DNA of 64,000 nucleotides, from the NCBI GenBank assembly GCA_013822345.1, contig PNKH01000003.1, forward strand, positions 62,001 to 126,000, in the 5' to 3' direction. Source of the stretch: Isosphaera sp. Its GTDB lineage: Bacteria; Planctomycetota; Planctomycetia; Gemmatales; Gemmataceae. Both the position numbers and the translations under genes were made by a program. Below, one piece after another: positions 8,416 through 61,296 of this stretch. The notes under the pieces were generated by a model. It was not told the DNA's origin. It was given only the letters and a program-made list of their open reading frames with translations, and did no database searches. How positions within the stretch are numbered: position 1 is the first letter of the stretch; every line of letters begins with the position of its first letter.

Positions 8416-8526
8416 GTAGGGTGCCGTCGAGGGCCGCGCTTCGCGGCCCGACGACGCACCACCCCCACGTCCGCGTGTCCCCGGTGCGTCGTCGCCGGGC
8501 GCTTCGCCCGGCTCGACCGCACCCGA
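8416..8526. repeat. Composite inverted repeat, family R1 copy A (arms 8416-8460 / 8482-8526)
   Basis: gtagggtgccgtcgagggccgcgcttcgcggcccgacgacgcacc ... ggtgcgtcgtcgccgggcgcttcgcccggctcgaccgcacccgac. Confidence 0.93.
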
Positions 8527-8565
8527 CGAGACTGGCCGTCGCTCACGCTTCCGGCTCGGACGGGA

Positions 8566-9675
8566 TCACGGGAGTAGGGTCAGCGGGTTGACGCGGGTCT
8601 TCAGCGGCAGGTCGACCGGCTTCCCGAGCCGGTGCGACTCGAACACCGCCGCGATCATCCCGACGATGGCGGTCGCGTCCCGGGCTGAACACTTCGTCTC
8701 CCGCTCCTTCTCGACCGCCTCGATCAGGTCGGTGATCGCGGCGACGTGCCCGCCCTCGTAGGTGCCGTCGGTCCGCGGCTCCGGCTTGTCGATCCCGGCC
8801 GAGGTGATCTTCTCCCACTTCGCCCCGCTGCGGCCCGGCGACCAGCTGCCGTCGCGGAGCAGGTCGGCCCTCACCAGGTAGCCGCTCTCCAGCTCGATCA
8901 CCCCCTTCGACCCGAACACCTGCACCGCGAACCGGGTCGGCTTCCCGGCCATGCCGCGGCGGCTGGCGAAGTACCCGGTCACCCCCTTCGGCAGGGCGTA
9001 ACTCGCCTGGACGTGGTCCCCGGCGAGCGGCCCGAGCCCCTCCGCCCCCTCCTTCACGTCCGCCTTGGTCACCGGCCGGCCCTGCTCGGTGACGGTGGCG
9101 TAGCACGACGTGGCGTTCCCGCCAGTGATCGTCCGCATCAGGCCGAAGATGTGCGACCCGAGGACCCACAGGTCCTCGCCGCCGCCGCGCTGGTCCTCCT
9201 TGCCGCGACCGCGGACCTCCAGCAACTCGCCGATCACCCCGTCGGCGATCACCTTCTTCACCGTATCGAGGACCGGCGAGTACTGGCTGATGTGGGCGAT
9301 GCCGAGCTTCAGGTGCCGCTTGTCCAGGGCCTCGACGACCGCGTCGCACTCCTTGAGCGTCCGGCAGAACGGCTTCTCCATGTAGACGTGGCAGCCGGCC
9401 TCGGCGGCGGCGATCAGCATGTCGTGGTGCTGGTCGACCCACCGCGGGCAGACGGCGACGATGTCGAGCTTCTCCTTGGCGAGCATGTCCTTGTACGCGG
9501 CGTACGCGGCCTTCGCCCCGGTCCGCTCCTGGGCCTTCGCCCGGCCGGCGTCGTGCGGGTCGGCGACGGCCGCGACCTGCACCGCCTCCACCTTGCGGAA
9601 CGCGGCGTCGACCGCGTGCCCGTAGTCGCCGCGGCCGGTGTGGCCGATGATCCCGACGCGGTACTTCTTCGCCAC
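8566..9675 (-). CDS. Gfo/Idh/MocA family oxidoreductase
   Basis: GTG 9675: (V)AKKYRVGIIGHTGRGDYGHAVDAAFRKVEAVQVAAVADP...DIVAVCPRWVDQHHDMLIAAAEAGCHVYMEKPFCRTLKECDAVVEA. Confidence 0.9.
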   Translation of the reverse strand: MAKKYRVGIIGHTGRGDYGHAVDAAFRKVEAVQVAAVADPHDAGRAKAQERTGAKAAYAAYKDMLAKEKLDIVAVCPRWVDQHHDMLIAAAEAGCHVYMEKPFCRTLKECDAVVEALDKRHLKLGIAHISQYSPVLDTVKKVIADGVIGELLEVRGRGKEDQRGGGEDLWVLGSHIFGLMRTITGGNATSCYATVTEQGRPVTKADVKEGAEGLGPLAGDHVQASYALPKGVTGYFASRRGMAGKPTRFAVQVFGSKGVIELESGYLVRADLLRDGSWSPGRSGAKWEKITSAGIDKPEPRTDGTYEGGHVAAITDLIEAVEKERETKCSARDATAIVGMIAAVFESHRLGKPVDLPLKTRVNPLTLLP

Positions 9676-9824
9676 GGGACGCTCCTCCGCGCTGTTCGGT
9701 GGGGTCACGCCTGGTGCCGGCGGGGCGGGATGGGGAGAGTGTACCCGACGCCCCGGGCGGGGGTGAAGGGGGTCGCGCCGGATCTGGGGGTGTGGTGAAC
9801 GGATGCCCGGGAAGGGAGGTGCGT

Positions 9825-11282
9825 CTACGGCCCCGGGGCCCGACCCGGCCCGGGCACCGCCGGCACGTCGACCGGCTGGCGGACGGCCCCGTCGAGCCCG
9901 CCGAGCGCCGGCTGGCCGATCGCCGCGTGGAGCCGGAACTGGGCCCGGTTGAACTCGACCACCTGCTGCAGGTACTGCACCCGGGCGGCGTTCAGGGCCT
10001 GCACCGCGGTCAGCGGCTCCAGCGCGTCGAACTGGGCCCGCGGGCCGACCATCCCGAACGACGCGGCCCGGAACTTCCGGTACATCTCCTCCGCCTGCCG
10101 GACCGCCTCCTGGGCCGCCCCGAGGGCGTCGAACCGGGCCGCCGCCGTCTCCGCCGCCTCGACCACCTGCGCGGCCACCAGCGCCTCCGCCTCCCGCAGC
10201 CGGAGCACCGCGGCGTCCAGACCGGCCCGCCGGGTGCGGACCACCGCCGCCGTCCCCAGCCCCAGGCTCTCCAGGTTCCAGGTCAGGGCGACGCCGGCGT
10301 TGTACTGGCTGACGAGCGGGCTGGACTGCCGGTCCGGGCTGTCCCGGAACCCGGTCAGCCCGCCGCCGACGAACTCCGCCTGCACCCGCGGCAGGAGCGG
10401 GGCCATCCTCGACTGCCGGACCAGGGCGTCCGCCCCCGCCACCCCGGCGGCCGCGGCCGCCACCTCCGGCCGGGCCCGCAGGGCGGTCTGCGTCAGCTCC
10501 TCCAGGGTCGTCTCCCCCGGCACCACCACCAGCGGGACGACCGCCGGCTCGTGCGGCAGCAACTCGACCACCGGGTCCAGGAGCAGCATCCGGGCGAGCC
10601 GGGCGGACGCCGCCGCCGCCCGCCCGCGCAGGACGATCCCCTCCTCCCGCCGCAGGTTCACCTCCGCCGCCGCCCGGTTCACGTCCGCCGCCGTCTTGTT
10701 CAGCCCGGCCTTCGCCCCCGCCTCCGCGGCCGCCAGGACCTGCTCGGTCCGGTCGAGGATGTCGGCGTTGACCGCCCGCAGCCCGTGCAACTCGACGAGG
10801 TCGAGGTAGGCGACGGCGACATCGAGCTGGACCGCGTTGGCGGTCGCGGCCGCCTGGGCGTTCGCCCCCCGCAGGGCCTGGCGGGCGACGAGCGGCAGGT
10901 ACAGGGCGTCGGCCAGGTCGACCCGCAGGGCGGGGCCGGCCCCGAGGGTGGCGTTCCCGCGGTCGACGACGAACGTGTCGCCCCGGCGGTTCTGGTCGAT
11001 CCCCTCGTGGTAGAAGAACGTCCCGCCGGCGGTCAGGCTCGGGACCCACGCCACCTTCGCCCGGTCGAGCTGGGCCGTCGCCTCCCGCACCCGGGCCCGG
11101 GCCACCCCGACGGTCGGGTTGTTCGCGTCGGCCAGCCGCAGGGCGGTCGGCAGGTCGATCGGGTAGGCGGCGGGGGCCCCCGGCCGGGCGGCCGCCGGGG
11201 CGTACGGCCGCGGCGGCTGGGCGGCCGCGGCCGTCGCCAGGGCTAGGCCGGCGAGGGCGACCAGACGGGATCGGGCAGTCAT
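9825..11282 (-). CDS. TolC family outer membrane efflux protein
   Basis: ATG 11282: signal peptide; YPIDLPTALRLADANNPTVGVARARVREATAQLDRAKVAWVPSLTAGGTFFYHEG; long heptad-like regions; 3' of the adaptor and pump genes. Confidence 0.88.
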   Translation of the reverse strand: MTARSRLVALAGLALATAAAAQPPRPYAPAAARPGAPAAYPIDLPTALRLADANNPTVGVARARVREATAQLDRAKVAWVPSLTAGGTFFYHEGIDQNRRGDTFVVDRGNATLGAGPALRVDLADALYLPLVARQALRGANAQAAATANAVQLDVAVAYLDLVELHGLRAVNADILDRTEQVLAAAEAGAKAGLNKTAADVNRAAAEVNLRREEGIVLRGRAAAASARLARMLLLDPVVELLPHEPAVVPLVVVPGETTLEELTQTALRARPEVAAAAAGVAGADALVRQSRMAPLLPRVQAEFVGGGLTGFRDSPDRQSSPLVSQYNAGVALTWNLESLGLGTAAVVRTRRAGLDAAVLRLREAEALVAAQVVEAAETAAARFDALGAAQEAVRQAEEMYRKFRAASFGMVGPRAQFDALEPLTAVQALNAARVQYLQQVVEFNRAQFRLHAAIGQPALGGLDGAVRQPVDVPAVPGPGRAPGP

Positions 11283-11305
11283 CGCGCCTCCGTGCGGCGG
11301 GCGGG

Positions 11306-12994
11306 TCACCACTTGTCGAAGACCGGCGTCACCCGGGCGTTCTCCCCGACCTCGAGCTGGCGGCTCAGGACGACGACCTCGTCCCCGGTCAACTCCCGGG
11401 TCACCTGCCGGCCGCCCCCGCCCGGGATCACCGCGGCCACCTTCGCCAGCGTCCCGTCGTTCATCTGGACGGCCACCGGGACTTGCCGCGTCAGCCCGTT
11501 CTCGACCACCAGGAGGTAGGACTGGCCGGCCCGCCCGTACACCGCCCCGGACGGCAGCAGGAAGGCGTCGCCGAACTTCTCCAGGTCGAGCCGCATCGTC
11601 GCGGTGGTCCCAGGGACGATGGCCGCGTCCCCGCGCCCGGCCCCGCGGTCCGGGGTCAGCGCCCACCCCTCGTGCCACCCCTTGTGGTCGGCCTTCCCGC
11701 GGTACATCCCCGCCCCGGCCGCGGCGACCGCGGCCAGCGGGTCGAGCGGGACCAGCGGGGAGAGCGTCGACTCGACCGCCGCCTCGGTCAGCATCGCCCG
11801 GTACTCGTCCCGGGTCCCGTTGAACACGTCCACCTCGACCCGCATCGTCTGGTCGGCCGGGTCGATCACCCGGCTGTACCGGGTGATCGGGCCGCGGACC
11901 GTCACCCCCGGGAGTTGGGTGAACTCGACCGTCGCCTCGGTCTCCCAGGAGACGAACGGGGCGGCGTTGTCCGGGACCTTGGCCACCACCGTCACCAGGT
12001 CGGTCCGGGCCACGGTGACGAGCGGGTCGGTCGAGCCCCCGGCCCCGGCGGACACGAACCGCCCGGGGTCGGCCGCCCGGGCCACGATCACCCCGTCGAA
12101 CGGGGCGTACAGCCGGGCGTACCCGACCTGGATGGCGGCCGCGTCCCGGTCCCGCCGGGCGACCTCGACGAACGCGGCCCGCAGTTCGATATCGGCCTGC
12201 GCCTTTTCCAGACTTGCGGCCTTCCCGGCCCGGTCCACCTTCGCCTTCTCGACGTCCGCCTCGGCCGCCTCGACCGCCCGGGCCGCGGCCTGGTAGTCGA
12301 GGGCGGCCGCGTCGACCCGGTTCCGCAGCACCACGGTCGACCCGGCCAGGGCGGTGACCGCGTCCAGGTCGGTCTTCCGGGCGGCCCGCGTGTCCTGCGC
12401 CCGGGCCACGTCGATCACCTTGAACCGGACCGCGACGGCGGCCGCGTCGACCGCCGACCGGGCCACCGCCAGGTCCGCCCGGGCGGCCGCCAGCTCCTTC
12501 TCCCGCTGGAGGACGACCGCCTCCTTCTGCTCGACCGCCTGCCGCAGGTCCGGGACATCGATGTCGACCAGCAGCTCCCCGGCCCGGACCGGCTCCCCGA
12601 TGTCCTTGGTCACCGACCGGACGACCCCGGTCACCCGGGCCCGCAGCCCGGCCTGGTAGTACGGCTCGACGGTCGCGAACTGGCGGGTGGTGATCCGGAA
12701 GTTCGCGTCCCGCCGCGGGCGGACCACCTTGACCGACTGCGGCCCGGTCTCGCGCGGCTCCGCCCGGCCGTTCGCCTTCGGGTCCCCGGCGACGACCGGG
12801 TTCGGGAGGAACCCGGTCAGCACCCCGACCCCGGCCGCCGCCCCGCCCACCCCGAGGGCGACGAGCAACCCGACCACGAGCCGCCGGCGGGCGCGGCCGG
12901 ACGGGCGGCGCGGGTGGTGCCCGGCGTGGTGCGGGGAGTGCATCTCGACCGGCCCGCCCGCGGGGGCGTCGGTGGGAACGGGGGTGTCGCTCAT
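11306..12994 (-). CDS. Efflux RND transporter periplasmic adaptor subunit (HlyD/MFP)
   Basis: ATG 12994: N-terminal TM, QFATVEPYYQAGLRARVTGVVRSVTKDIGEPVRAGELLVDIDVPDLRQAV...YARLYAPFDGVIVARAADPGRFV. Confidence 0.9.
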   Translation of the reverse strand: MSDTPVPTDAPAGGPVEMHSPHHAGHHPRRPSGRARRRLVVGLLVALGVGGAAAGVGVLTGFLPNPVVAGDPKANGRAEPRETGPQSVKVVRPRRDANFRITTRQFATVEPYYQAGLRARVTGVVRSVTKDIGEPVRAGELLVDIDVPDLRQAVEQKEAVVLQREKELAAARADLAVARSAVDAAAVAVRFKVIDVARAQDTRAARKTDLDAVTALAGSTVVLRNRVDAAALDYQAAARAVEAAEADVEKAKVDRAGKAASLEKAQADIELRAAFVEVARRDRDAAAIQVGYARLYAPFDGVIVARAADPGRFVSAGAGGSTDPLVTVARTDLVTVVAKVPDNAAPFVSWETEATVEFTQLPGVTVRGPITRYSRVIDPADQTMRVEVDVFNGTRDEYRAMLTEAAVESTLSPLVPLDPLAAVAAAGAGMYRGKADHKGWHEGWALTPDRGAGRGDAAIVPGTTATMRLDLEKFGDAFLLPSGAVYGRAGQSYLLVVENGLTRQVPVAVQMNDGTLAKVAAVIPGGGGRQVTRELTGDEVVVLSRQLEVGENARVTPVFDKW

Positions 12995-16188: not shown

Positions 16189-16296
16189 CCGTACTCCTCC
16201 GTGGCCGCGAGCGCCCGGGGCAGTTTCGCTCCGAGTAGGTATGGTAACCGGCACCGGGACCGAAGTCACGCCGCCCGGCCCCCGAAGGGACCCGCC

Positions 16297-17640: not shown

Positions 17641-17657
17641 CCCCACGAGGACCACCC

Positions 17658-19079: not shown

Positions 19080-19142
19080 GCCGGGTGCCCGGCCGCGAAC
19101 CGGGGCTGGTCCGGCGGGGTCTACCGACCGGAGGGGGGTGAC

Positions 19143-19466: not shown

Positions 19467-19467
19467 C

Positions 19468-19887: not shown

Positions 19888-19894
19888 GCCCGCC

Positions 19895-19957
19895 CGGGCC
19901 GCCACGGAGGGCGGCCCCTACCGGTGGTCGGTAGGGGCCGCCCTCCGTGGCGGCCCG
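19895..19957. repeat. Perfect inverted repeat: 28-bp arms (19895-19922 / 19930-19957), 7-nt spacer, between convergent genes
   Basis: cgggccgccacggagggcggcccctacc / ggtaggggccgccctccgtggcggcccg; each arm also folds on itself (gggccgcc...ggcggccc). Confidence 0.95.
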
Positions 19958-19983
19958 CGACCGCCTGACCGCCCGCCGCCGGG

Positions 19984-21348: not shown

Positions 21349-21459
21349 GTCGGGTGCCGTCGAGGGTCGCGCTCGCGACCCGACGACGCACCGGGGCGGC
21401 CGGCGAGGTGGAATGGTGCGTCGTCGCCGGGCGAAGCGCCCGGCTCGACCGCACCCTAC
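21349..21459. repeat. Composite inverted repeat, family R1 copy B (arms 21349-21392 / 21415-21459)
   Basis: gtcgggtgccgtcgagggtcgcgctcgcgacccgacgacgcacc ... ggtgcgtcgtcgccgggcgaagcgcccggctcgaccgcaccctac; the right end contains the stop codon of the 21456 gene. Confidence 0.93.
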
Positions 21460-24389
21460 TTCTTCCCCGGCGGGTACGGCAACACGTTGGTCCGCCCCGC
21501 CCACTCGTCCCACCGGGCGGCCAGGTCCTTCACCTTCTCGGGCATCTTCGCGGCGAGGTCGGTCGACTCGGTCGGGTCGGCGGCCAGGTCGTACAGCTCC
21601 CACGGCTTGCCGCGGAGGGCGACGAGTTTCCAGTTGCCGGCCCGGACCGCCCGGTTCCGCTCGTGCTCCCAGCCGAGGAGGTCCCGATCGACCGGCTTGC
21701 CGGCGAACGCCGGGACGAGGCTCTTCCCCTCCGTCGGCGTCACCGCCCGGTCGCCGACCTTCTCCGGGTACCTCGCCCCGGCCAACTCGACGCACGTCGC
21801 CATCACGTCGACGACGTGCCCGACCTGGTGGCGGAGCTCGCCCCGCGCCGCGATCCCGGCCGGCCAGTGGGCGACGAGCGGGGTGCGGATCCCGCCCTCG
21901 TGGGCGTAGTGCTTGTACCACCGGAACGGCGTGTTCGACGCGTTCGCCCACCCGCTCCCGGTGCTGTGGTACGTCCCCGGCCCGCCCATCCTGTCCAGGT
22001 CGGCCCCCGCGTGCAGCACGTTCTTCGGCCCGGACCCGCCGTCGAACCCGAACGAGTCCCACTCGGCACACGCCCCGTTGTCCGACAGGAACAGGATCAG
22101 CGTGTTCTCGAGCTGGCCGTTCTTCCGCAGGTCGTCGACCACCCGGCCGACGTTCCGGTCCATCCGGTCGACCATCGCGGCGTACACCGCCATCCGCCGG
22201 GCGAGGTCGGCCCGCCGGTCCTCCGGGAGCGTGTCCCACGCCGGGTTCTCCCCGGCGCGGAAGAAGTCGCTGCGGGTCTCGAACGGCGACCGCGGCGGGA
22301 GGGCGGTCGTGGCGCCGAACAGCCCGAGCTTGACCTGCCGGGCGAGCCGCTCCTCGCGGAGCTTGTCCCAGCCCTTCGTGTACGTGTCCTTGTACTTCGC
22401 GATGTCTTCCGTGCGGGCGTGGAGCGGGAAGTGCGGGGCGGTGTACGCCAGGTACAGGAAGAACGGCTTCTCCGGCGCCTTCCGGGCGTCGGCCAGGAAG
22501 TCGAGGGCGTGGTCGGTGAACGCGTCGGTGGCGTAGAACCCGCCGGCCGGGTACTCGCGGGCCGGCCGCCCGGCCGGGAGCCGGACGTACGCCTTCGCGT
22601 CCCGGAAGTCGCGGAACCCCTCGACCAGCCCGTAGTACTCGTCGAACCCGCCGCGGGCCACCGGGCCGCGGCCGGCCCCGCCGCCGAGGTGCCACTTCCC
22701 GGCCATCAGGGTGCGGTACCCGGCGGCCTTCAACACCTCGGCGACGGTGACGGCGTTCGGCTGGAGCGCCCCGCGGTACCCGGGGGCGCCCTGGTCGGCC
22801 AGCATGTCCCCGACCCCGGCCTGGTGCGGGTACAGCCCGGTCATCAGGCTGGCCCGGGTCGGGCAGCAGCGGGTGCAGTTGTAGAACTGGGTGAACCGCA
22901 CCCCGCCGGCGGCCAGGGCGTCCAGGTTCGGGGTGGCGATCTCCCCGCCGTAGCACCCGAGGTCCGAGAACCCGAGGTCGTCGGCCAGGATCAGCACGAC
23001 GTTCGGCTTCTTGGCCGGCGGCGGGTCCTTCTTCTTGGGCCGCGGGTCGGGGAGCGCCCGCTCGGTCTTCAGCCCCTCGTCGCCCTGGTCCTTCATCCAC
23101 GCGTCGAGGTCGGCGCGGAGGGCCTTGAGGGTGTCGGCGTGGGCCGGGTCGGCGGCCAGGTTCCTCAGCTCGTGCGGGTCGGCCGCCAGGTCGTACAGCT
23201 CCTCCGCCGGGCGGGTGTGGTACCGGCGGACGACCGCCGCCGCGGCCGGGTCGGTCTTCGCCTTCGCCACCCACGAGCGGAAGTAGTTCGGCCCGTCGGC
23301 GTCCGGGTTCGCCCCCTTGTCGACGTGGGTGTGGTGCTCGGCCCCCGGGTCGAGGTTGCGGACGTACTTCCGGTCCCGAATGCGGACCGCCCGGAGCGGG
23401 TACCGGTTCATGTCCCCGTCCCCGCTGTGGGTGACGAAGACCTTGTCCCGGTGGGCCGCCTTCTCCCCGCGCAGGACGCCGAGGAACGACCTGCCGCTCA
23501 GCGTCTCCGGCGGCTTCCCGCCGGCGGCTTCGAGGCACGTCGGGAGGAGGTCGGTCCAGCTCACCAGCGCGTCCGACGCTGACCCCGGCTTGATCTTGTC
23601 CGGCCATGCGGCGAGGAGCGGAGTGCGGACACCGGCGTCGTAGGCGTTCCACTTGCCGAACGGGAACTGGGCCCCGTGGTCGCTGGTGAACACGAACAGG
23701 ACGTCCGGGCCGAGGTGCTTCCGGGCCGCGTCGTACACCAACCCGAGGTCGCGGTCGGCGTTCGCCACGGCGGCCAGGTAGCGGGCCCGGGCCTGCCGCG
23801 TCTCCGGGGTGTCGACCAGGGTCGGCGGGAGGGTCAGCTTGGCCGGGTCGAGGGTCGTCTCCTTCGGCCACGGGACGTGCGGCCAGTTCGTGCCGACGAG
23901 CAGGCACAGCGGCTTCCCCGGCTTCCGGCCGGCGAGCCACTTCACCGCCGCGTCGACGCAGTCGTCCTGGTGGTAGTTGAAGTGGCTGGCGTGGTCGAAC
24001 CCGTAGTCGGTGACCTGGCCGTAGTGGGCGGTCTTGCCGACCGCCGCGGTCTCGTACCCGAGGTCCTTGAAGTACGCCGGCCACCGCTTCACGTCGGCCC
24101 GCGGGCGGCTGTGGTTCAGCATCGCCCCGTTCCGCATCGGGTCGAGGCCGGTGAGGAGGGCGGCCCGGCTCGGGGCGCAGCTCGGGGAGGCGACGAAGGC
24201 ATGGGTCAGGGTGACCCCATCCTTCGCCAGCCGGGCCATGTTCGGGGTCGGCACGTCCTTCCCGCCGTAGGGCGAGCAGTCCGCCCAGCCGAGGTCGTCG
24301 GCGAGGAAGACGACGACGTGGGGCGGGTCGGCGGCCGCGGCCGGGCCGGCCGCGGCGGTGAGGAGGAAGGCAACGTGCAGGCGGGTCAC
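21456..24389 (-). CDS. Two-domain sulfatase (tandem sulfatase-sulfatase fusion, 977 aa)
   Basis: Domain 1: PPHVVVFLADDLGWADCSPYGGKDVPTPN...SPSCAPSRAALLTGL. Linker LPDPRPKKKDPPPAKK near 22990-23050. Domain 2: PNVVLILADDLGFSDLGCYGGEIATPNLDALAAGGVRFTQFYNCTRCCPTRASLMTGLYPHQAGVG. One uninterrupted frame. Confidence 0.93.
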   Translation of the reverse strand: MTRLHVAFLLTAAAGPAAAADPPHVVVFLADDLGWADCSPYGGKDVPTPNMARLAKDGVTLTHAFVASPSCAPSRAALLTGLDPMRNGAMLNHSRPRADVKRWPAYFKDLGYETAAVGKTAHYGQVTDYGFDHASHFNYHQDDCVDAAVKWLAGRKPGKPLCLLVGTNWPHVPWPKETTLDPAKLTLPPTLVDTPETRQARARYLAAVANADRDLGLVYDAARKHLGPDVLFVFTSDHGAQFPFGKWNAYDAGVRTPLLAAWPDKIKPGSASDALVSWTDLLPTCLEAAGGKPPETLSGRSFLGVLRGEKAAHRDKVFVTHSGDGDMNRYPLRAVRIRDRKYVRNLDPGAEHHTHVDKGANPDADGPNYFRSWVAKAKTDPAAAAVVRRYHTRPAEELYDLAADPHELRNLAADPAHADTLKALRADLDAWMKDQGDEGLKTERALPDPRPKKKDPPPAKKPNVVLILADDLGFSDLGCYGGEIATPNLDALAAGGVRFTQFYNCTRCCPTRASLMTGLYPHQAGVGDMLADQGAPGYRGALQPNAVTVAEVLKAAGYRTLMAGKWHLGGGAGRGPVARGGFDEYYGLVEGFRDFRDAKAYVRLPAGRPAREYPAGGFYATDAFTDHALDFLADARKAPEKPFFLYLAYTAPHFPLHARTEDIAKYKDTYTKGWDKLREERLARQVKLGLFGATTALPPRSPFETRSDFFRAGENPAWDTLPEDRRADLARRMAVYAAMVDRMDRNVGRVVDDLRKNGQLENTLILFLSDNGACAEWDSFGFDGGSGPKNVLHAGADLDRMGGPGTYHSTGSGWANASNTPFRWYKHYAHEGGIRTPLVAHWPAGIAARGELRHQVGHVVDVMATCVELAGARYPEKVGDRAVTPTEGKSLVPAFAGKPVDRDLLGWEHERNRAVRAGNWKLVALRGKPWELYDLAADPTESTDLAAKMPEKVKDLAARWDEWAGRTNVLPYPPGKK

Positions 24390-32451: not shown

Positions 32452-32643
32452 GTCTTCACCTCTCCCCGCTGGGGAGAGGTCGCCGCCGCGCCTCGCGGCG
32501 GCGGGTGAGGGGCGCCACCCACCAGACCCCCGGTCGCGTCGCCCCGGGGCGGGGGGTCGCCGCCGGGTTTCTCCGGAGGTGGTGCCCCTCACCCGGCCGG
32601 CGAAGCGCCGGCCGACCTCTCCCCGGCGGGGAGAGGTGAAGAC
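32452..32643. repeat. Nested inverted repeat (about 192 bp), outer 30-bp arms with 1 mismatch, between sigma and kinase genes
   Basis: gtcttcacctctccccgctggggagaggtc (32452-32481) / gacctctccccggcggggagaggtgaagac (32614-32643); internal pair gggtgaggggc / gcccctcaccc; further hairpins ccgccgcgcctcgcggcgg and ggccggcgaagcgccggcc. Confidence 0.95.
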
Positions 32644-38904: not shown

Positions 38905-39009
38905 GAACCCAGGCCGTTGGCCTGGGCTGAGGGAGGCCGCCCCTTCAGGGCTTTCCGTCTGAGGGCCGAAGGCCCGCCCTCCCTCAGCCCAGGCCAACGG
39001 CCTGGGTTC
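38905..39009. repeat. Inverted repeat, family R2 copy 1: perfect 32-bp arms (38905-38936 / 38978-39009)
   Basis: gaacccaggccgttggcctgggctgagggagg / cctccctcagcccaggccaacggcctgggttc; arm self-hairpin cccaggcc-gtt-ggcctggg. Confidence 0.96.
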
Positions 39010-39043: not shown

Positions 39044-40375
39044 TCACACCAACTCGGCCATCACCCGGCCGTTGTTGACCGCCGCCGTCGGGCGGCCGTC
39101 CGGGGTGTGGAACTCGCCCCTCGGGTCGACCCCCATCAGGGTGAACATCGTCGCGAACAGGTCTTCCGGGCCGTACGGGTCGCTCGCCGGCCGCTCCGCC
39201 CGGGCGTCCGTCTTCCCGACCACCACCCCGCCCTTCACCCCGCCGCCGCCGAGCAGCACCGTGAACGCCGGCCCCCAGTGGTCGCGGCCCGCGTTCTTGT
39301 TGACCCGCGGCGTCCGCCCGAACTCGCCGGTCACCACCACGAGGGTGGTGTCGAGCAGGCCGCGGTCGGCCAGGTCGCGGAACAGGGTGCTGATGGCGGA
39401 GTCGTACACCGGCAGTAGCGAGTTCTTCAGCGTCGCGAAGTTGCCGTCGTGCGTGTCCCAGTTGCTGTGGTCGATGGTCACGCACCGCACCCCGCCCTCG
39501 ACCAGCCGCCGCGCCATCAGGCACGACTGCCCGAGCGAGTGCCGGCCGTACTCGTCCCGGAGCTTCTCCGGCTCGGCGTGGATGTCGAACGCCTTCTTCG
39601 CGGCCCGCGATGTCATCAGGTCGAACGCCTGGTCGCGGAACGTGGCGACCGCCCCGGCGTGGGCGTTCGCCTTTGCCTCGGCACTGCGGTGAAAGCGGTC
39701 CACGGTTTCCAGCAAAGCGCGGCGGTCGCCGAGGCGGTCGGCGGCGACGGCCGGCGGCGGGACGAGGTCGGGGACCGAGAAGTTCGGGGCGCTCGGGTCG
39801 GCGTCGATGACGAACGGGGCGTGACCGGCCCCGAGGAACGCCGGCCCGCCGCTCGGGTGCAGCTTCGGCAGGGCGACGTACGCCGGCACCGACCCGCGCG
39901 GCCCGAGCGCCTTCGACACCGCCGACCCGACGCTCGGCCGCTGGTTGTTCGGGGTGACGGTCGGGTTGAACCCGGCGGCCGGGAAGAACCCGGTCAGGAT
40001 GTAGTGGTCGGCCGGGCCGTGGTCGGAGTTGTGGTGGCGGAACGACCGGACCAGGGAGAACTTGTCGACCTGCCCGGCGACCCTCGGCAGCAGGTCGCAC
40101 ATGACCAGGCCGGGGACCTTCGTCTTCGCCGGGTTGAACTCGCCGCGGAACTCGGCGGGGGCGTCCGGCTTGAGGTCGAACGTGTCGAGGTGGCTCTGCC
40201 CGCCGTGGAGGAAGACGAAGATCAGCGACACGTCCCTCTTCGGCCGGGCGGTGTCGGACGCCCGGAGGAGGTCCGGCAGCCCGAGGGCGGAGCCGAACAG
40301 GGCCGCGGTGCCGAGGCGGAGCGCGTCCCGCCGGGTGGCGCCGTCGCAGAAGGTGGGCATCAGCGTCCTCCGCAC
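39044..40375 (-). CDS. DUF1501 domain-containing protein
   Basis: 443 aa; ATRRDALRLGTAALFGSALG; FVFLHGGQSHLDTFDLKPDAPAEFRGEFNPAKTKVPGLVMCDLLP; LVVVTGEFGRTPRVNKNAGRDHWG. An internal Met (MPTFCDG...) is a plausible alternative start. Confidence 0.94.
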   Translation of the reverse strand: MRRTLMPTFCDGATRRDALRLGTAALFGSALGLPDLLRASDTARPKRDVSLIFVFLHGGQSHLDTFDLKPDAPAEFRGEFNPAKTKVPGLVMCDLLPRVAGQVDKFSLVRSFRHHNSDHGPADHYILTGFFPAAGFNPTVTPNNQRPSVGSAVSKALGPRGSVPAYVALPKLHPSGGPAFLGAGHAPFVIDADPSAPNFSVPDLVPPPAVAADRLGDRRALLETVDRFHRSAEAKANAHAGAVATFRDQAFDLMTSRAAKKAFDIHAEPEKLRDEYGRHSLGQSCLMARRLVEGGVRCVTIDHSNWDTHDGNFATLKNSLLPVYDSAISTLFRDLADRGLLDTTLVVVTGEFGRTPRVNKNAGRDHWGPAFTVLLGGGGVKGGVVVGKTDARAERPASDPYGPEDLFATMFTLMGVDPRGEFHTPDGRPTAAVNNGRVMAELV

Positions 40376-40377
40376 AT

Positions 40378-40429
40378 AGCCCGGGGCTTGCCCCGGGTCC
40401 GAGCTTCGACCCGGGGCAAGCCCCGGGCT
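40378..40429. repeat. Perfect inverted repeat, 22-bp arms, 8-nt spacer
   Basis: agcccggggcttgccccgggtc / gacccggggcaagccccgggct; arm self-hairpin cccgggg-cttg-ccccggg. Confidence 0.95.
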
Positions 40430-40436
40430 GTATGAA

Positions 40437-43902: not shown

Positions 43903-43928
43903 GAGGCGGGTCCGGGCGGGAGGCTGGA

Positions 43929-44013
43929 AGAGAAGGGGTGAGGGGGTGAAGGGGTGACAGAACCGGGGGTGTCTTGTCACCCCTTCACCCCCTCACCCGT
44001 TCACCCCTTCTCT
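43929..44013. repeat. Imperfect inverted repeat built from tcacccc-like units, in a divergent intergenic region
   Basis: agagaaggggtgagggggtgaaggggtgaca (43929-43959) / tgtcaccccttcaccccctcacccgttcaccccttctct. Confidence 0.85.
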
Positions 44014-44112
44014 TATGGAGCGGCGGGGTCCAACACCCGCTTGTACCACGCCGGCGGGCCGGGGGCAACGACCGAGTTGCTTTCCGCCGGGTCTCCGGGC
44101 AGCATGGGCGCC

Positions 44113-45427: not shown

Positions 45428-45487
45428 GGGAGGGCGAGGCTCCCGCCGAGCCGTGGACGCCCGGCTCGGCGGGAGCCTCGCCCTCCC
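45428..45487. repeat. Perfect inverted repeat, 25-bp arms, 10-nt spacer, between convergent genes
   Basis: gggagggcgaggctcccgccgagcc (45428-45452) / ggctcggcgggagcctcgccctccc (45463-45487). Confidence 0.96.
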
Positions 45488-49125: not shown

Positions 49126-49222
49126 CCAGGCCGTTGGCCTGGGCTGAGGGAGGGCGGCCCTTCGGGCCTCAGACCCAAAGCCCCGAAGGGGCGTACTCCC
49201 TCAGCTCAGGCCAACGCCCTGG
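49126..49222. repeat. Inverted repeat, family R2 copy 2: 27-bp arms with 2 mismatches
   Basis: ccaggccgttggcctgggctgagggag (49126-49152) / ctccctcagctcaggccaacgccctgg (49196-49222); same sequence family as 38905-39009. Confidence 0.93.
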
Positions 49223-49254
49223 GTCGCCCGAATGTTCCGGCCAGGGGGTGTCGC

Positions 49255-50043
49255 ATGGGCGGGTTGCGGGAACTCGACCGGGTCCTGCGGGGCGAGGCGA
49301 CCGACCGGCCGGCGCTGGCGCGCGACGGGCTCGCGGTCCCGGTCGGGCCGCTCCTCCGGGTGTCCGCCCTGCTCGCCGCCGGGTACGGCGTCTGCATGGG
49401 CGTCTACGGGCTGGCGGCACGGGCCGAGCCGGAGGTCCGCCAGCTCCTCGCCGACGCGGTCAAGGTGCCGGCCCTGTTCCTCCTCACCCTCGTCGTCACC
49501 TTCCCGTCGCTGTACGTGTTCAACGCCCTGGTCGGGTCGCGGCTCGGCGCCCGCGAGCTGGCCCGGCTGATGGCCGCGGCGGTGGCGGTCACCGTCGCCG
49601 TCCTCGCCGGCCTCGGCCCGATCGTCGCGTTCTTCTCCCTCACCACCACCAGCTACGCGTTCGTCGTCCTGCTGAACGTGGCCGTGTTCGCGGTCGCCGG
49701 CGGGTTCGGCCTGGCGTTCCTCCTCCGCACCCTGGAGAAGCTGACCGCCCGCCCGGCGCCGACCCCCGCCCCGGCCGCCGAGACCGAGTTGGTGCCGGCG
49801 GGGGAAGACGAAGCCCCGGCCGCGCCGCCGACGCCGCCTCCGGCCCCGCCCGCCACCGACGTGGGCGTCACGGCCGTGTTCCGGGTGTGGGTGGTGCTGT
49901 TCGCGGTGGTCGGGGCGCAGATGAGCTGGGTGCTCCGGCCGTTCATCGGGTCGCCGACCGAGCCGTTCACCTGGTTCCGGCCGCGCGAGTCGTCGTTCGT
50001 CGAGGCGGTGCTGCGGTCGTTCCGGGCGCTGTTCGCGGGGTGA
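49255..50043 (+). CDS. Membrane protein of unknown function (paralog of the next gene)
   Basis: 262 aa; several hydrophobic segments; VKVPALFLLTLVVTFPSLYVFNALVG; GAQMSWVLRPFIGSPTEPFTWFRPRESSF. Confidence 0.8.
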   Translation: MGGLRELDRVLRGEATDRPALARDGLAVPVGPLLRVSALLAAGYGVCMGVYGLAARAEPEVRQLLADAVKVPALFLLTLVVTFPSLYVFNALVGSRLGARELARLMAAAVAVTVAVLAGLGPIVAFFSLTTTSYAFVVLLNVAVFAVAGGFGLAFLLRTLEKLTARPAPTPAPAAETELVPAGEDEAPAAPPTPPPAPPATDVGVTAVFRVWVVLFAVVGAQMSWVLRPFIGSPTEPFTWFRPRESSFVEAVLRSFRALFAG

Positions 50044-50048
50044 CCCCG

Positions 50049-50726
50049 ATGACCACCCTGGCGTTCCGGCTCGTGGACGGGCTGTTGCGCGGCGCCCCGG
50101 CCGCGGGCGGCTGGGGCGCGGGGCTGGCCGTCGTCGTGCTCGGCGGGATGGCCTACGGGGCGGTGATGGGGGCGTCGGCCGGGCTCGGCGGCGACCGCCC
50201 GCTGCAGGTCCTGTTCTCGGCGGTGAAGGTGCCGCTGCTGCTCCTGGTCACCACCGCCCTGGCCCTGCCGAGCTTCTTCGTGATGAACTCGCTCCTCGGG
50301 CTGCGGGCCGACTTCCCGGAGGCGGCCCGGGCGGTGGCGGCCGCCCAGGCGGCGGTCGCGGTCGTGCTCGCGGCCCTGGCCCCGTACACCGCCCTGTGGT
50401 ACGCCACGTCGGCCGACTACCACGAGGCGATCCTGTTCAACGTCGCGATGTTCGCGGCGGCGAGCGCGGCGGCGCAGTGGGTGCTGCGGCGGCGGTACGC
50501 GGCGCTCGTGGCCCGGGACCCGCGGCACCGGGCGATGCTCCGGGCGTGGCTCGGGGTGTACGCGTTCGTCGGCGTCCAGATGGGGTGGGTGCTCCGGCCG
50601 TTCGTCGGCCGGCCGGACCGCCCGGTCACGTTCTTCCGCGACGACGCTTGGGGCAACGCCTACGTCGTCGTCCTCGACCTCGCCTGGCAGGCGCTGACGC
50701 GATGGCCCGGGTGGTCTTTCCCGTAG
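50049..50726 (+). CDS. Membrane protein of unknown function (paralog of the previous gene)
   Basis: 225 aa; VKVPLLLLVTTALALPSFFVMNSLLG; VQMGWVLRPFVGRPDRPVTFFRDDAWGN. Stop TAG 50724-50726 lies in the repeat at 50723. Confidence 0.8.
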   Translation: MTTLAFRLVDGLLRGAPAAGGWGAGLAVVVLGGMAYGAVMGASAGLGGDRPLQVLFSAVKVPLLLLVTTALALPSFFVMNSLLGLRADFPEAARAVAAAQAAVAVVLAALAPYTALWYATSADYHEAILFNVAMFAAASAAAQWVLRRRYAALVARDPRHRAMLRAWLGVYAFVGVQMGWVLRPFVGRPDRPVTFFRDDAWGNAYVVVLDLAWQALTRWPGWSFP

Positions 50727-50783
50727 CACAAGCGTCCTCGCTTGTGCCGCGCCGGGGGGCACAAGCGAGGACGCTTGTGCTAC
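50723..50783. repeat. Perfect inverted repeat, 26-bp arms, 9-nt spacer, at the junction of convergent genes
   Basis: gtagcacaagcgtcctcgcttgtgcc (50723-50748) / ggcacaagcgaggacgcttgtgctac (50758-50783); each arm is itself a hairpin (gcacaagcg-tcct-cgcttgtgc). Confidence 0.97.
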
Positions 50784-51733
50784 GGGGAGACGCCCACGCC
50801 CGGCGGGGGCGGCTCGTCGAGCCGCATTTCCGCCACCTCGTCGACGTGCCCCGGCGAGCCGAAGCCGACGATCGCCGACGACACCGCCGGGTGCGCCAGG
50901 GCGAAGCGCACGGCTAGTTCCGACACCGGGAGCCGGCCCGCGACTCGGTCGCGGAGCCGGCGGGCGCGGGCCAGGTCGCGCTCGTACAGGGCGAGCGGGA
51001 AGAACGGCGTCTTCAGCGTGTGGGCGCTCGGCGGCCGATCGAGCAGGGCCCCGCCGGCGAACACGCGGATCGCGAACACGCCCATCCCGACGGCCGCGCA
51101 GTCGGCGATCACGTTCCCGTAGTCCGCCTCGCCGTCCGCCGACCACGGCACCCCGGCGCTCGGGTTCAGGACGTTGAACGGCACCTGCACCGTGTCGAAC
51201 GCGCCGGACCGGATCACCTCGCGCATCGCGTCCGCCCGGCCGGTGCCGGTCAGCCCGACGAAGTCCGCCAAGCCCTCCGCGCACACCAGGCGGAACGCCT
51301 CAACGACACCCCCGAGCACGTCGCCGGGGGTGAGCGAAGACAGCTCGTCGCCGCGGTGCGCGGTGACGCCGTTGTGCAACTGCAGGAGCGTGACCCGCGG
51401 CAGCCGCAACCGGGCCAGGCTCGCCTCGACCGACCGGCGGACGTAGCCCGCGGCGTCCGTCAGCGCCTCCGGCGGGAGCCGCACCTTCGTGGCGACGTGG
51501 ACGCCGTCCGCGACGCCGAGTCCCGCCAGGACTCGTCCGAGGTTCGCTTCGGACGACCCGTCGCCGTACCCGGCCGCGGTGTCGAACCAGTTGACGCCGA
51601 CCTCGACCGCTCGGCGGACGGTGGCGAGTTGGGCGGCGTGGTCGGCGCCGGTCATCAGCCCGGACACCGGCCCGGCCCCGAACGACACGGCGGACACACG
51701 GAGTTTCGTCCCACCGAGGGTGCGGTACATCAT
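50780..51733 (-). CDS. Aldo/keto reductase family protein
   Basis: MMYRTLGGTKLRVSAVSFGAGPVSGLM...VGVNWFDTAAGYGDGSSEANLGRVL...ATKVRLPPEAL; ATGA overlap with the upstream gene at 51730-51733. Confidence 0.9.
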   Translation of the reverse strand: MMYRTLGGTKLRVSAVSFGAGPVSGLMTGADHAAQLATVRRAVEVGVNWFDTAAGYGDGSSEANLGRVLAGLGVADGVHVATKVRLPPEALTDAAGYVRRSVEASLARLRLPRVTLLQLHNGVTAHRGDELSSLTPGDVLGGVVEAFRLVCAEGLADFVGLTGTGRADAMREVIRSGAFDTVQVPFNVLNPSAGVPWSADGEADYGNVIADCAAVGMGVFAIRVFAGGALLDRPPSAHTLKTPFFPLALYERDLARARRLRDRVAGRLPVSELAVRFALAHPAVSSAIVGFGSPGHVDEVAEMRLDEPPPPGVGVSP

Positions 51734-52590: not shown

Positions 52591-52592
52591 CG

Positions 52593-53879: not shown

Positions 53880-53968
53880 GGCGCCCAGCGTAGCCGGGCG
53901 CCCGGCGATGTCCAGCGGTCGCGGAGCGGTTCAAGTAACCGACCTCCGATGTCGATAGAGGACAGGAG

Positions 53969-53974
53969 TATACT
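53969..53974 (+). promoter_or_regulatory. Possible -10-like element (TATACT) upstream of the 54023 gene
   Basis: gacaggagTATACTtccccaccgtggggg in an AT-richer patch 48 nt before ATG 54023; no convincing -35. Confidence 0.25.
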
Positions 53975-54022
53975 TCCCCACCGTGGGGGGCGTACTCGGT
54001 TCCACACCGACGGGAGAACGAC

Positions 54023-54553: not shown

Positions 54554-54609
54554 CGGCGGACGCCGGGATTCGGCGCGTACAGTAGGGGTAACTCCGGCAC
54601 CAGGCCGCT

Positions 54610-54642
54610 GGTTAGCGACGCGTCTGCGACGCGCCGCTAACC
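54610..54642. repeat. Short hairpin (ggttagcg...cgctaacc)
   Basis: ggttagcgacgcgtctgcgacgcgccgctaacc with inner stem cgcgtc-tgc-gacgcg. Confidence 0.8.
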
Positions 54643-54674
54643 GGGACCGGAACCACTTCTCGCGGGCGTGACCC

Positions 54675-56180: not shown

Positions 56181-56185
56181 TCTTC

Positions 56186-56291
56186 GTAGGGTGCGGTCGA
56201 GCCGGGCGCTTCGTCCGGCGACGACGCACCGCGCCACGCGAACGTGGTGGTGCGTCGTCGGCCGCGAAGCGCGGCCTCGACGGCACCCTAC
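56186..56291. repeat. Composite inverted repeat, family R1 copy C (arms 56186-56230 / 56249-56291)
   Basis: gtagggtgcggtcgagccgggcgcttcgtccggcgacgacgcacc ... ggtgcgtcgtcggccgcgaagcgcggcctcgacggcaccctac; contains the stop codon (56288-56290) of the minus-strand gene. Confidence 0.93.
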
Positions 56292-57715: not shown

Positions 57716-58914
57716 GCGTCCTCCTCGAACAGCTTCGCGGCCGGGTCGAGCAGCGCCCAGCAGACGGCCGTCCCGGCGAACAGCGCCGCGAACAGCAGGA
57801 TGGCGGCGTTCCAGTCCCCGGTCGCCCCGACCAGCTGGCCGACGGCGAACGGGAAGAACCCGGCCCCGACGTTCCCGGCCATGTTCATCGTGGCGAACAC
57901 CGGGGTCGACCGCGTGCCGCCCATCGACAGCGCGACGGCGTAGGCCGACGGGCCGGCGACGTAGGCACAGAACGCGGCGACGCTCACCATCGCCACCACC
58001 GCCGTTGCGGTGTCGGCCCAGTACGCGGCGAACGAGATCCCCGCGGCCAGCACCATCGCCCCGGCCGGCAGCCCGGCCCGGCTCACCCACTCGCGGCCGG
58101 TCCGCCGCAGCACCCAGTCGGAGACCACGCCGCCGAGCAACCCACCGGGGATGCCGGCGAGCAGCGGCCACGAGGCGTAGCTACCGGACTCGGCCGGGGT
58201 GAGGTGCTTCGTCTCCTGGAGGAACCGCGGCAGCCAGGTGAACAGGAACGCGGTCGCCGCCGCCCGCTGGAACTGCTGGGCGCAAAGCAACACCATGTTC
58301 CGGTCCCTCAGCAGCCGCGCCCAGTCGGTGCGCGGGCGAGGGCCCTCCGGGTTGCGGGGCGCGTCCGGCCGCGGGACGAGCAGCCCGAACGCCACCGCCC
58401 AGACCAACCCGGGCAGGGCGTACACGGCCAGGACCTGCTGCCAGGTGAGCGGGCCGAACAGCCGGCCGGTCACCTCCTGCGACAGCGCCGCCCCGCCGGA
58501 CATGCAGCACGCGAGCAGCCCGGACGCCACCGCCTGCTCGGTCCGCGGGAACGTCGCCCCGATCGCCTTCGTCGCGCACGGGAACACGCCCGCCTGCGCC
58601 GCCCCCATCAGCCCCCACAGCAGCGCCAGCCCGACGAACCCGGCGGCCAGCCCGACGACGGCCGTGAGGCCGGACCACGCGACGGCGAACACGACCAGGG
58701 CCGGCTTGCTCCCGAGCTGGTCGGCGACCCAGCCGGACGGCAGCTGCATCGCCGCGTACCCGGCGTACCACGCCAGCCAGACGAGCCCCATCGCCTGCGG
58801 GGTGAGGCCGAGCTCGCCCTCGATCGCCTTCGACGGCACCCCGAGCGCCGACCGCTGGAGGTAGGCGACGAGGGTGACCAGGCAGAGGAACGCGAGGAGG
58901 GTGTAGCGGGTCAC
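57712..58914 (-). CDS. MFS transporter (anion:cation symporter / hexuronate transporter-like)
   Basis: GTG 58914: (V)TRYTLLAFLCLVTLVAYLQRSALGVPSKAIEGELGLTPQAMGLVWLAWYAGYAAMQLPSGWVADQLG; 4-nt overlaps with both neighbours. Confidence 0.9.
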   Translation of the reverse strand: MTRYTLLAFLCLVTLVAYLQRSALGVPSKAIEGELGLTPQAMGLVWLAWYAGYAAMQLPSGWVADQLGSKPALVVFAVAWSGLTAVVGLAAGFVGLALLWGLMGAAQAGVFPCATKAIGATFPRTEQAVASGLLACCMSGGAALSQEVTGRLFGPLTWQQVLAVYALPGLVWAVAFGLLVPRPDAPRNPEGPRPRTDWARLLRDRNMVLLCAQQFQRAAATAFLFTWLPRFLQETKHLTPAESGSYASWPLLAGIPGGLLGGVVSDWVLRRTGREWVSRAGLPAGAMVLAAGISFAAYWADTATAVVAMVSVAAFCAYVAGPSAYAVALSMGGTRSTPVFATMNMAGNVGAGFFPFAVGQLVGATGDWNAAILLFAALFAGTAVCWALLDPAAKLFEEDA

Positions 58915-59831
58915 CGCGGCGGCCCGTGGAGGGTGTCCTGGAGGCGGGCGAACAGGCGGTCCACCTCGGCCGCGGTTTCGGGGTCGAGCTCCCACCCGAC
59001 CGGGCCGCGGCGGCGGGCGGTCGGGAACAGCCCGCGCCGCACCATCAGGTACTTCTCGACCGCCAGGAACCCGTCGAGCCCGGCCTGGAGTTGCAGGGCG
59101 ACCAGGGCGCACACCGGGAAGTACACCCGGTACGCGGCCGCCTCGTCGCCGGCCCGCAGCGCCCGCCACACCGCCACCACCCCGTCGAGCAGGTCCATGC
59201 CGGGCATCGTGCCAGCGATCCCGCGGCGGAAGCTGTCGACGAGGAAGATGCCGCCGGACCCCTCGAACATCACCGCCCGGCCGCCGGTCGCGTCCCGCAG
59301 GGCGGACAGCGTCGGCCCGTTCGGCGCCGCCTCCGGCTTGAACAGGATCTTGTCCGGCCCGTACCGGTCGAGCAGCTCGACGCACGCCGGGATCGGGATC
59401 GCCTGGCCGACGTACCCGGACGCGTCCTGGACGATCACCGGCAGGGCGGTGGCGTCGGCGACCGCCCGGAAGTGGCAGACCAGGTGGGCGGCGGTGACCC
59501 GCCCGGCGAGCGGCGGGGCGGCCATCACCGCGTCGCACCCGGCCCGCTCCGCGGCGGCCGCGAGCGCCACCGCCTGCCGGGTGCCCTCCGCCCCGACCGC
59601 CGCGAACACCGGCCCCCGGCCGGCGGCGAACTCGACCAGCATCCCCGCCAGTGACACCCGTTCGTCACTGGTGAGCTTCGCCGACTCGGACACCATCCCG
59701 GTGCCGACCCCGTCCGCTCCGACCGCGAACGCCCAGTCGACCGCCCGCCGGAGCGCGGCCGGGTCGATCTCGTCGGCGTCGGTGAACGGCGTGTGCGCGA
59801 CCGCCAGCACGCCGCGGAGGGGCTTGGGCAT
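58911..59831 (-). CDS. Dihydrodipicolinate synthase / N-acetylneuraminate lyase family protein
   Basis: 306 aa; MPKPLRGVLAVAHTPFTDADEIDPAALRRAVDWAFAVGADGVGTGMVSESAKLTSDERVSL...VIVQDASGYVGQAIP...ILFKPEAAPNGPTLSALRDAT. Confidence 0.9.
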   Translation of the reverse strand: MPKPLRGVLAVAHTPFTDADEIDPAALRRAVDWAFAVGADGVGTGMVSESAKLTSDERVSLAGMLVEFAAGRGPVFAAVGAEGTRQAVALAAAAERAGCDAVMAAPPLAGRVTAAHLVCHFRAVADATALPVIVQDASGYVGQAIPIPACVELLDRYGPDKILFKPEAAPNGPTLSALRDATGGRAVMFEGSGGIFLVDSFRRGIAGTMPGMDLLDGVVAVWRALRAGDEAAAYRVYFPVCALVALQLQAGLDGFLAVEKYLMVRRGLFPTARRRGPVGWELDPETAAEVDRLFARLQDTLHGPPR

Positions 59832-59845
59832 GTCGGCTTTCTCCT

Positions 59846-59950
59846 GGGACCGCGGGCGTCCCGCCCGCTGCGTCGACGCGCGTGCCGGTTCCGGACTGAA
59901 CCGTGAGGCATCGGCACCTGGGCCGCAGCGGGCGGGACGCCCGCGGTCCC
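59846..59950. repeat. Perfect inverted repeat, 27-bp arms (59846-59872 / 59924-59950)
   Basis: gggaccgcgggcgtcccgcccgctgcg / cgcagcgggcgggacgcccgcggtccc; arm self-hairpin gcgggcg-tcc-cgcccgc. Confidence 0.95.
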
Positions 59951-59954
59951 GGGT

Positions 59955-61133
59955 TCACCAATCCCCCACGCTGCCGTCGGTGTAGAACACGCGCTGCGGC
60001 AACTCCTGCTGGAACGGGTGCTTCCGCACCTCCGCCTCGTCGATGTCGACGCCGAGCCCCGGCCGGGTGTTCGGCCGCACCACCCGACCCTTCGGGTCGA
60101 CGGTGAACCCTTCCCGGACCACGTCCGCCCGCCACGGCACGTCGGCGTGGACGGTCTCGCAGATGACGTAGCTCGGCTGGGAGAAGCCGAACTCCAGGCT
60201 GGCGGCGGTGCTGACCGGCCCCTGCGGGTTGTGCGGGGCGAGCGCGATCCGGTGCGCCTCGGCCAGGGCGGCGACCCGCCGGGCCTCGGTCAGCCCGCCG
60301 CAGTGGGTGATGTCCACCTGGCACACCTCGCACGCCCGGGTCGCGAACAGGTCGCGGAACGCCGCGAGGTTCGTCACCCGCTCCCCTGTGGCCACCGGAG
60401 TGCTGACCGCCTTATTGATCATCGCCAGCCCGTCGACGCTCTCCGGCCAGCACGGCTCCTCGAGGAAGTACAGGCCGTACGGCTCCAGCGCCTTCGCGAA
60501 CTGCAGCCCCATCGCCGGCGACGGCCGGGCGTGGCAGTCGACCATGATGTCGACCCCCTCCCCGACCGCCTCGCGCATCGCCGCGACGCACCGCTCGGCC
60601 GCCCGGACCGGCTTCAGCCCTTCGAGCGGCAGGGTCGGCGGGACGGCCATGCACTTGAACGCGGTGAACCCGTCGGCGACGGCCTGCCGGGCGAGGTCGG
60701 CGAACCGCTTCGCGTCGTCGGCCGCGGTCTCGTAGAAGTCCTCCATCCGCCCACCGCCGAGGTGGCAGTAGGTGCGGACGTGGTCCCGGACCGGCCCGCC
60801 CCAGAGCTTCGAGCACGGCACCCCGCACACCTTGCCGAGGATGTCCCACAGGGCCAGGTCGATGCCGGCGATGGCGGTCGCCCGGACGATCCCGTGCCCG
60901 TGCCAGAAGTGCTGCCGGTGCATCATCTGCCACAGGTGTTCGACCCGGGTCGGGTCCTCCCCGACGACCAGCTCGGCGCAGTCCTCCACCGCCCCGACGA
61001 CCGCCCGGGTGTGCCACTCGAGGGTCGCCTCGCCCCACCCGAACAGCCCGTCCCGGTCGGTCACGACCTTGACGAACACCCAGTTCCGCATCCGGGCGTG
61101 GCAGACGTGCGTCTCGACGCGGGTGATCTTCAT
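59955..61133 (-). CDS. Mandelate racemase/muconate lactonizing enzyme family (galactonate dehydratase-like)
   Basis: ATG 61133: [61 protein letters not shown]...[44 protein letters not shown]...[18 protein letters not shown]. Confidence 0.9.
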
Positions 61134-61192
61134 CGCCGCCCATTGTGCCGGGTGCGCCCGGGGAACGCTAGCGCCGAGTCGGTCCGGACGGG

Positions 61193-61296
61193 TCGTCGGG
61201 TGCCGTCGAGGGTCGCGCTTCGCGACCCGACGACGCACCGGCGCCGCATGGTGCGTCGTCGGGTCGCGAAGCGCGACCCTCGACGGCACCCGACGA
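61193..61296. repeat. Perfect inverted repeat, 47-bp arms, 10-nt spacer (family R1 copy D)
   Basis: tcgtcgggtgccgtcgagggtcgcgcttcgcgacccgacgacgcacc (61193-61239) / exact reverse complement (61250-61296). Confidence 0.97.

Follow-up and report, generated by a model that had tools for sequence, protein, structure and literature searches.

The intergenic spacers of Isosphaera sp. (Planctomycetota; Gemmataceae) are rich in paired palindromes. We analyzed these elements in a window of 64,000 nucleotides (nt), positions 62001-126000 of contig 3 of a draft genome of 7.47 Mb in 226 contigs, and in the genome at large. They are very probably REPINs, that is, inverted pairs of repetitive extragenic palindromic (REP) hairpins, non-autonomous DNA whose copying would depend on Y1 HUH transposases that single-copy genes supply in trans. 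Roughly 20 unrelated multicopy palindrome families lie in the spacers of this one Gemmataceae genome. Elements of this kind are known; the variant of transposase that goes with some of them is new. Support comes from the dispersed copies and their paired arms, covariation within one family (family D), the flanking of Y1 genes by palindromes, the pairing of gene and family across species, and orthologous junctions that are empty in some relatives and filled in others.

Abundant Palindromes of Many Families in the Intergenic Spacers

Statistics were taken from sampled stretches amounting to 1.26 Mb of the 7.47 Mb, or from an 864-kb subset of these, and were complemented by whole-genome searches. 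Genes were called with a purpose-written codon-usage caller, and palindrome scores likewise came from purpose-written scripts. A search of the 864-kb sample for ungapped inverted repeats (arms of at least 20 nt, identity of at least 90%) returned 207 mostly intergenic repeats, whereas five dinucleotide shuffles of the spacers gave 0, 1, 0, 0, and 0. In the 1.26-Mb sample, 341 of the 760 spacers of 25 to 900 nt harbored a significant gapped palindrome (score of at least 16), and none did after shuffling. The preliminary description of this DNA had named an equal density in shuffled spacers as a result that would refute its reading; these counts contradict such an equality outright. The palindromes make up 25% of the intergenic DNA and 2.4% of the 1.26-Mb sample, from which we extrapolate to a total of about 2000 elements genome-wide. 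The strict intergenic placement noted earlier was borne out: of 224 inverted repeats, 207 are located mainly in spacers, in a sample that is 88% coding. Some elements overlap flanking stop codons, as judged from the gene calls, and all window elements otherwise lie in spacers.

The preliminary description had listed 11 spacers, each with an inverted repeat whose arms are themselves short hairpins, and had proposed that unrelated families share this architecture. All 11 were recovered by inverted-repeat search and folding, the one at 21349 once indels were allowed. The proposal of a single architecture holds in part. Self-hairpin arms are overrepresented, with a score of at least 7 in 41% of arms versus 10% of shuffled arms, but clusters F0, F2 (window 45428), F6, and F8 (window 43928) form long palindromes with arms that show little folding of their own.

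Family counts rest on strict ungapped clustering, which grouped the 207 repeats into 22 clusters with at least two copies and 15 singletons. Single-linkage clustering of all gapped palindromes was rejected because chaining merged unrelated families into a cluster of 121; the stricter ungapped clustering was therefore used. Letters A to I denote window families, and F0, F1, F2, and so on denote clusters in the genome sample, with A matching F17, G matching F1, I matching F2, and H matching F8. The window elements, to none of which a strand is assigned, are as follows.

8416..8527: family A REPIN; GTAGGGTGC.. hairpin, spacer, and inverted hairpin with GTCGGGTGC.. foot; the family flanks the REP-associated tyrosine transposase (RAYT) gene C14b
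19895..19957: family F palindrome (CGGGCCGCCACGGAGGGCGGCCC); convergent spacer; cluster of 4 in 1.26 Mb
21349..21459: family A REPIN; gene 21456-24389(-) takes its TAG stop from the CTAC foot at 21456-21459
32452..32643: family E palindrome (CACCTCTCCCCGCTGGGGAGAGGT); nested hairpins; 24 places in 864 kb
38905..39009: family B REPIN (CCCAGGCCGTTGGCCTGGGCTGAGGGAGG..); CCC[AG]GG hairpin, as beside subclass-1.2-like Y1 genes
40373..40434: family C REPIN (AGCCCGGGGCTTGCCCCGGG); sole exact copy in the genome; CCC[AG]GG hairpin class, like B
43928..44014: family H palindrome; GGGGTGA-type 8-nt tandem arms, no self-hairpin; divergent spacer; not among the 11
45428..45487: family I palindrome (GGGAGGGCGAGGCTCCCGCCGAGCCG); convergent spacer; F2, 14 copies in 864 kb; not among the 11
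49126..49222: second family B REPIN, from the inverted-repeat search and unit count
50720..50786: family D REPIN (GTAGCACAAGCGTCCTCGCTTGTGC, spacer, inverted copy), from unit count, covariation, and gene calls
56186..56291: family A REPIN; convergent spacer; the inverted-repeat search also reports 56166
59843..59953: family G REPIN (GGACCGCGGGCGTCCCGCCCGC); F1, 20 copies in 864 kb; the family brackets RAYT gene C49
61193..61296: family A REPIN; perfect 47-nt arms, GTCG foot

Genes in the window include DUF1501, PSCyt2, PSD1, and sulfatase genes. Together with the top matches of one window protein, which fall in assemblies of Gemmataceae and other planctomycetes (Zavarzinella formosa among them), they point to the Gemmataceae. 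The units of the element at 21349, GTCGGGTGCCGTCGAG at 21349-21364(+) and GTAGGGTGCGGTCGAG at 21444-21459(-), were missed by the ungapped search and seen with indels. The family E element at 32452 occupies a tandem spacer with a sigma-70 region-2 gene on one side and a kinase/WD40 gene on the other. At 50720, the two GTAG feet of family D supply the TAG stops of both convergent genes (50040-50726+ and 50780-51733-).

Genome-wide, family A has 64 exact units; when two mismatches are allowed, the count rises to 126, with 23 in the control. Families B and D have 62 and 57 units, and the reversed-pattern control returned none for either. The units of A, B, and D occur mostly as plus/minus pairs at near-constant spacing, and A, B, D, and G each consist of two inverted REP hairpins in many dispersed copies, as expected of REPINs. 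Family C is represented by a single REPIN in the genome; at two to three mismatches, the genome and the reversed control yield similar numbers of further matches. The concern that each element might occur only once therefore applies, among the window families, to C at 40373. A GT[AG]G foot stands at the hairpin base in A and D, as GTAG in most units; it is absent from B, G, E, and F, whose outer bases differ and which are thus not GTAG REPs.

The arms of family D also carry the compensatory changes whose presence the preliminary description had proposed to check. At arm pair 10-19, 12 distinct units have G-C and 9 have C-G, with no unit unpaired, and both units of one pair share the same version in the sampled stretches. 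Across the D arm hairpin 94.6% of cells are paired, a value reached by 0 of 500 shuffles.

A further architecture was observed in palindromes whose arms are built of 7- to 8-nt units (GGGGTGA, AGTGGGC, ATTTCAG, GTCCTTG) and contain no REP hairpin. Such tandem-arm palindromes lie at window 43928-44014, L027:7373-7470, L018:10973-11070, L065:8779-8904, and elsewhere. Tandem-like arms were found in 19 of the 341 palindromes, where 2.4 are expected from shuffled arms, and three of the 19 are of F0 type with a 6-nt lag. No transposase was found beside the tandem-arm palindromes.

Y1 Transposase Genes Flanked by Their Own Palindrome Families

Searches with the Pfam Y1 family, the NCBI RAYT family, and an alignment of their hits together identified seven Y1/HUH genes in the genome, none of them on the window's contig. 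The earlier remark that no RAYT is visible is correct for the window, but in the genome three of the seven genes (C14a, C14b, and C49) score above the NCBI RAYT cut-off NF047646. These three possess the HUH motif, WQ, and the Y(3)NP motif, and the best solved structure for the profile of these proteins is E. coli TnpA-REP (PDB 4er8, E 6e-20). Six of the seven genes carry a single palindrome family on both flanks, the pairs being C14a with F5, C14b with A (F17), C49 with G (F1), C40 with I (F2), C35 with F0, and C75 with F14. C14b lies between two complete family A REPINs. C35 has the motifs NHVH, WT, and Y(4)Q, and its family, F0, has a CCGA foot. The parallel drawn earlier with REPINs and bacterial interspersed mosaic elements (BIMEs) is borne out by these findings, which combine dispersed paired hairpins with Y1 genes each flanked by its own family. 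Mobilization by RAYTs, as then envisaged, fits families A and G, which accompany RAYT genes, but some families pair with class 3 or subclass-1.2-like Y1 genes.

In the mechanism that we favor, the Y1 transposase would recognize the foot and hairpin in single-stranded DNA; we infer the catalysis by Y1 and the route of copying in trans. Class 2 RAYT-type genes would serve A, G, I, and F5, the class 3 gene F0, and the subclass-1.2-like gene F14. Some 20 families would stand side by side because several different Y1 genes are, or once were, present in the genome. The survivors would lie after stop codons since insertions into genes and promoters would be purged, and any role at RNA 3′ ends would be secondary.

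The C49 gene (L023:9741-10434) lies between left and right family G arms, an arrangement like that of a REPIN enclosing its own transposase gene.

Subclass-1.2-Like Y1 Genes with REPIN-Like Repeats

C75, which has the motifs DHVH, WQ, and YIANQEEHH, and its low-copy relatives (YIxNQxxHH) fit the subclass 1.2 signature DH[IV]H, WQ, Y(3)Q(2)HH (Table 1 of PMC6006769); the subclass 1.2 assignment, like that of class 3, rests on motifs and not on a tree. The 2018 survey lists no REP for subclass 1.2 of TnpA-Y1 (Quentin et al. 2018, PMC6006769), and in the literature after 2018 we found no relevant report linking the two. Of 119 Planctomycetia genomes, 42 have between one and five genes of this type, and the profile of their proteins is nearest to TnpA structures of the ISDra2 and IS608 types. 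Among the 28 loci with enough flank, 22 share a repeat on both sides, compared with 42 of 250 ordinary genes in a control drawn from one genome and with slightly wider flanks. A CCC[AG]GG hairpin was present at 11 of 33 such loci and at none of 29 loci from the class 2 RAYT search or of 29 control loci. By their motifs, subclass-1.2 Y1 genes thus appear to carry REPIN-like repeats and to represent a transposase type not previously linked to REPs. Within the window the CCC[AG]GG hairpin is confined to families B and C, and B-like units flank L246, the locus of a 1.2-type gene from a genus mate. Because B, C, and the 1.2-type loci have this hairpin in common, we assign B and C, by resemblance, to the subclass-1.2 type.

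Recurrence across Species and Probable Insertion and Turnover

Many of the relatives used in the comparisons are metagenome assemblies. In other Gemmataceae, family G lies alongside the most C49-like Y1 loci (L186, L182, and L233; 64-68% identity), and the GTAGGGTG family lies alongside L174, L176, and L234, which are among the nearest to C14b (59%). Family I accompanies L188, the locus nearest to C40 (63%), and F0 accompanies L237, the nearest to C35, as well as the further relatives L197 and L198. These sequence comparisons indicate that transposase lineage and palindrome family travel together across species.

Four orthologous junctions were compared, three in one operon and one of a convergent gene pair. 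The operon junction between genes 59955-61133 and 58911-59831, which contains family G in the window, is nearly empty in at least seven relatives: L080-L083 have 2-11 nt there, and L086-L088 have 8 nt. In L074, L075, L076, L078, L079, L084, L085, L102, and L107 the same junction is 72-362 nt long and filled with palindromes, mostly of unrelated sequence. The next two junctions of that operon are nearly always empty. At the convergent junction after the aldo-keto gene, beside D in the window, L205 has an unrelated perfect palindrome, and L206 and L207 have almost no spacer. Family D was absent from all 18 genus mates among 58 relatives, with five matches in the family mate G049 and one in another, and no Y1 locus of G049 carries it; D is a lineage-specific expansion. 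Near-empty and filled versions of the same junction, together with the absence of D from the 18 genus mates, are as insertion and turnover predict, and the operon junction that is empty in some relatives and differently filled in others supports insertion as its probable history.

In one genus mate, G008, assembled as one contig of 10.1 Mb, a profile search found no Y1 gene; other genus mates have several. In L146, from a distant planctomycete, a family I-like palindrome (GGAGGGCGAGGCTCCTGCCGA) occupies the orthologous junction after the MR_MLE gene.

Placement and Alternative Explanations

In tandem spacers the element starts a median of 8 nt past the upstream stop codon, and 198 of 222 such elements are closer to that stop than to the next start. 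An element is present at half of the convergent junctions versus a quarter (41 of 151) of the divergent spacers, so that placement is, as in REPINs, intergenic and scarcer before promoters. Such positions recall intrinsic terminators, as do GC-rich hairpins after stop codons. We nevertheless rejected ordinary intrinsic terminators and consider them highly improbable, because T-tracts are missing: only 5 of 341 elements have a run of four T's at 12 nt or less from one of their ends. Dispersed near-identical families, copies in divergent spacers, and the flanking of transposase genes speak against them as well. The high GC content of the spacers (73%) might favor chance self-complementarity, but zero to one repeats would then be expected where hundreds were observed, which renders chance practically negligible.

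A more serious alternative is that strong post-stop hairpins are kept for blocking 3′-5′ exonucleases or for marking 3′ ends after Rho-dependent termination, with mobility providing only the raw material and unrelated families swapping in and out. The distance from the stop codon fits this proposal, as does the orthologous junction repeatedly filled by unrelated palindromes beside mostly empty neighbors, and E. coli REPs reportedly stabilize RNA 3′ ends but do not terminate transcription (PMC13289151). However, insertion plus purging from genes and promoters can explain the same placement, and REPs elsewhere show the same post-stop position and the same supply of stop codons (Di Nocera et al. 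2013, PMC3733652). Moreover, the spacer length that remains once the element is subtracted is no longer than in element-free spacers, the junction in question is only 2-11 nt long in no fewer than seven relatives, and divergent spacers also hold elements. We consider this alternative unlikely as the reason for the elements; a selected role in RNA 3′-end protection is possible but not required. It is also rather doubtful that the two ideas combine into a broader one, in which planctomycete spacers hold mobile palindromes of three or more transposase lineages, one of them a REPIN system driven by subclass-1.2 proteins, and the cell employs any of these interchangeably, once it sits behind a stop codon, as a sequence-independent RNA 3′-end element. 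Finally, inverted pairs might arise by template switching during replication and spread by gene conversion, without a transposase. The palindromes with tandem-unit arms, no REP hairpin, and no adjoining transposase would suit such a process, which could apply at best to that class; family-by-family flanking of Y1 genes that recurs across species makes it very unlikely for the elements at large.

Several observations weigh against the REPIN interpretation. Movement is deduced from comparison of relatives and not of near-identical strains with and without an element. C14b, the RAYT of family A, and C40, the RAYT-like gene of family I, each have one frameshift in this assembly, whether genuine or an assembly error, and in this genome families A and I may have lost their mobility. 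C28 lies beside F4 on one side only, and weakly, and the 42 of 250 ordinary genes with similar sequences on both sides belong to this same REPIN-rich genome. No cognate transposase was found for families E and F, and D has only a resemblance to the GTAGCACAGGGC hairpins beside the 1.2-type genes L240/L244. The frameshifted genes are located at L054:10532-10980 and L055:15907-16268, and their palindromes are still numerous.

Relation to Known Systems and Implications

Most described hosts have one to a few REPIN families per genome. The genome analyzed here differs in having about 20, several without a cognate gene in the genome. In other respects its elements resemble the REPINs/BIMEs of RAYT systems (Bertels and Rainey 2011; Nunvar et al. 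2010; Ton-Hoang et al. 2012), with GTAG-foot hairpins that form inverted pairs and are scattered among the spacers, a RAYT flanked by its own family, post-stop placement, and TAG stops supplied by GTAG. The GTAG REPs of Rhodopirellula baltica and the PVC group share the GTAG foot, dimers, phylum, and intergenic placement (Di Nocera et al. 2013, PMC3733652); Gemmata is not mentioned there, and the likeness is one of description and not of a letter-by-letter consensus. Class 3 TnpA-Y1 proteins with CnGA-foot structures are known in Planctomycetes (Quentin et al. 2018, PMC6006769), and the motifs of C35 and the CCGA foot of F0 match them, although none of the 11 elements listed in the preliminary description belongs there. 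With subclass 1.2 of the same survey (PMC6006769), C75 shares motifs and low copy number, and the flanking repeats found here are the difference. A Y1 HUH transposase is also common to IS200/IS605, but those are multicopy coding elements, whereas here low-copy genes stand against many noncoding copies.

The link to subclass 1.2, if confirmed, would suggest a likely function for those proteins. Three kinds of Y1 transposase and about 20 palindrome families constitute a natural matched set for studying how foot and hairpin are recognized, and the same set bears on the fate of a family after its transposase decays and on the co-option of mobile palindromes at gene ends.

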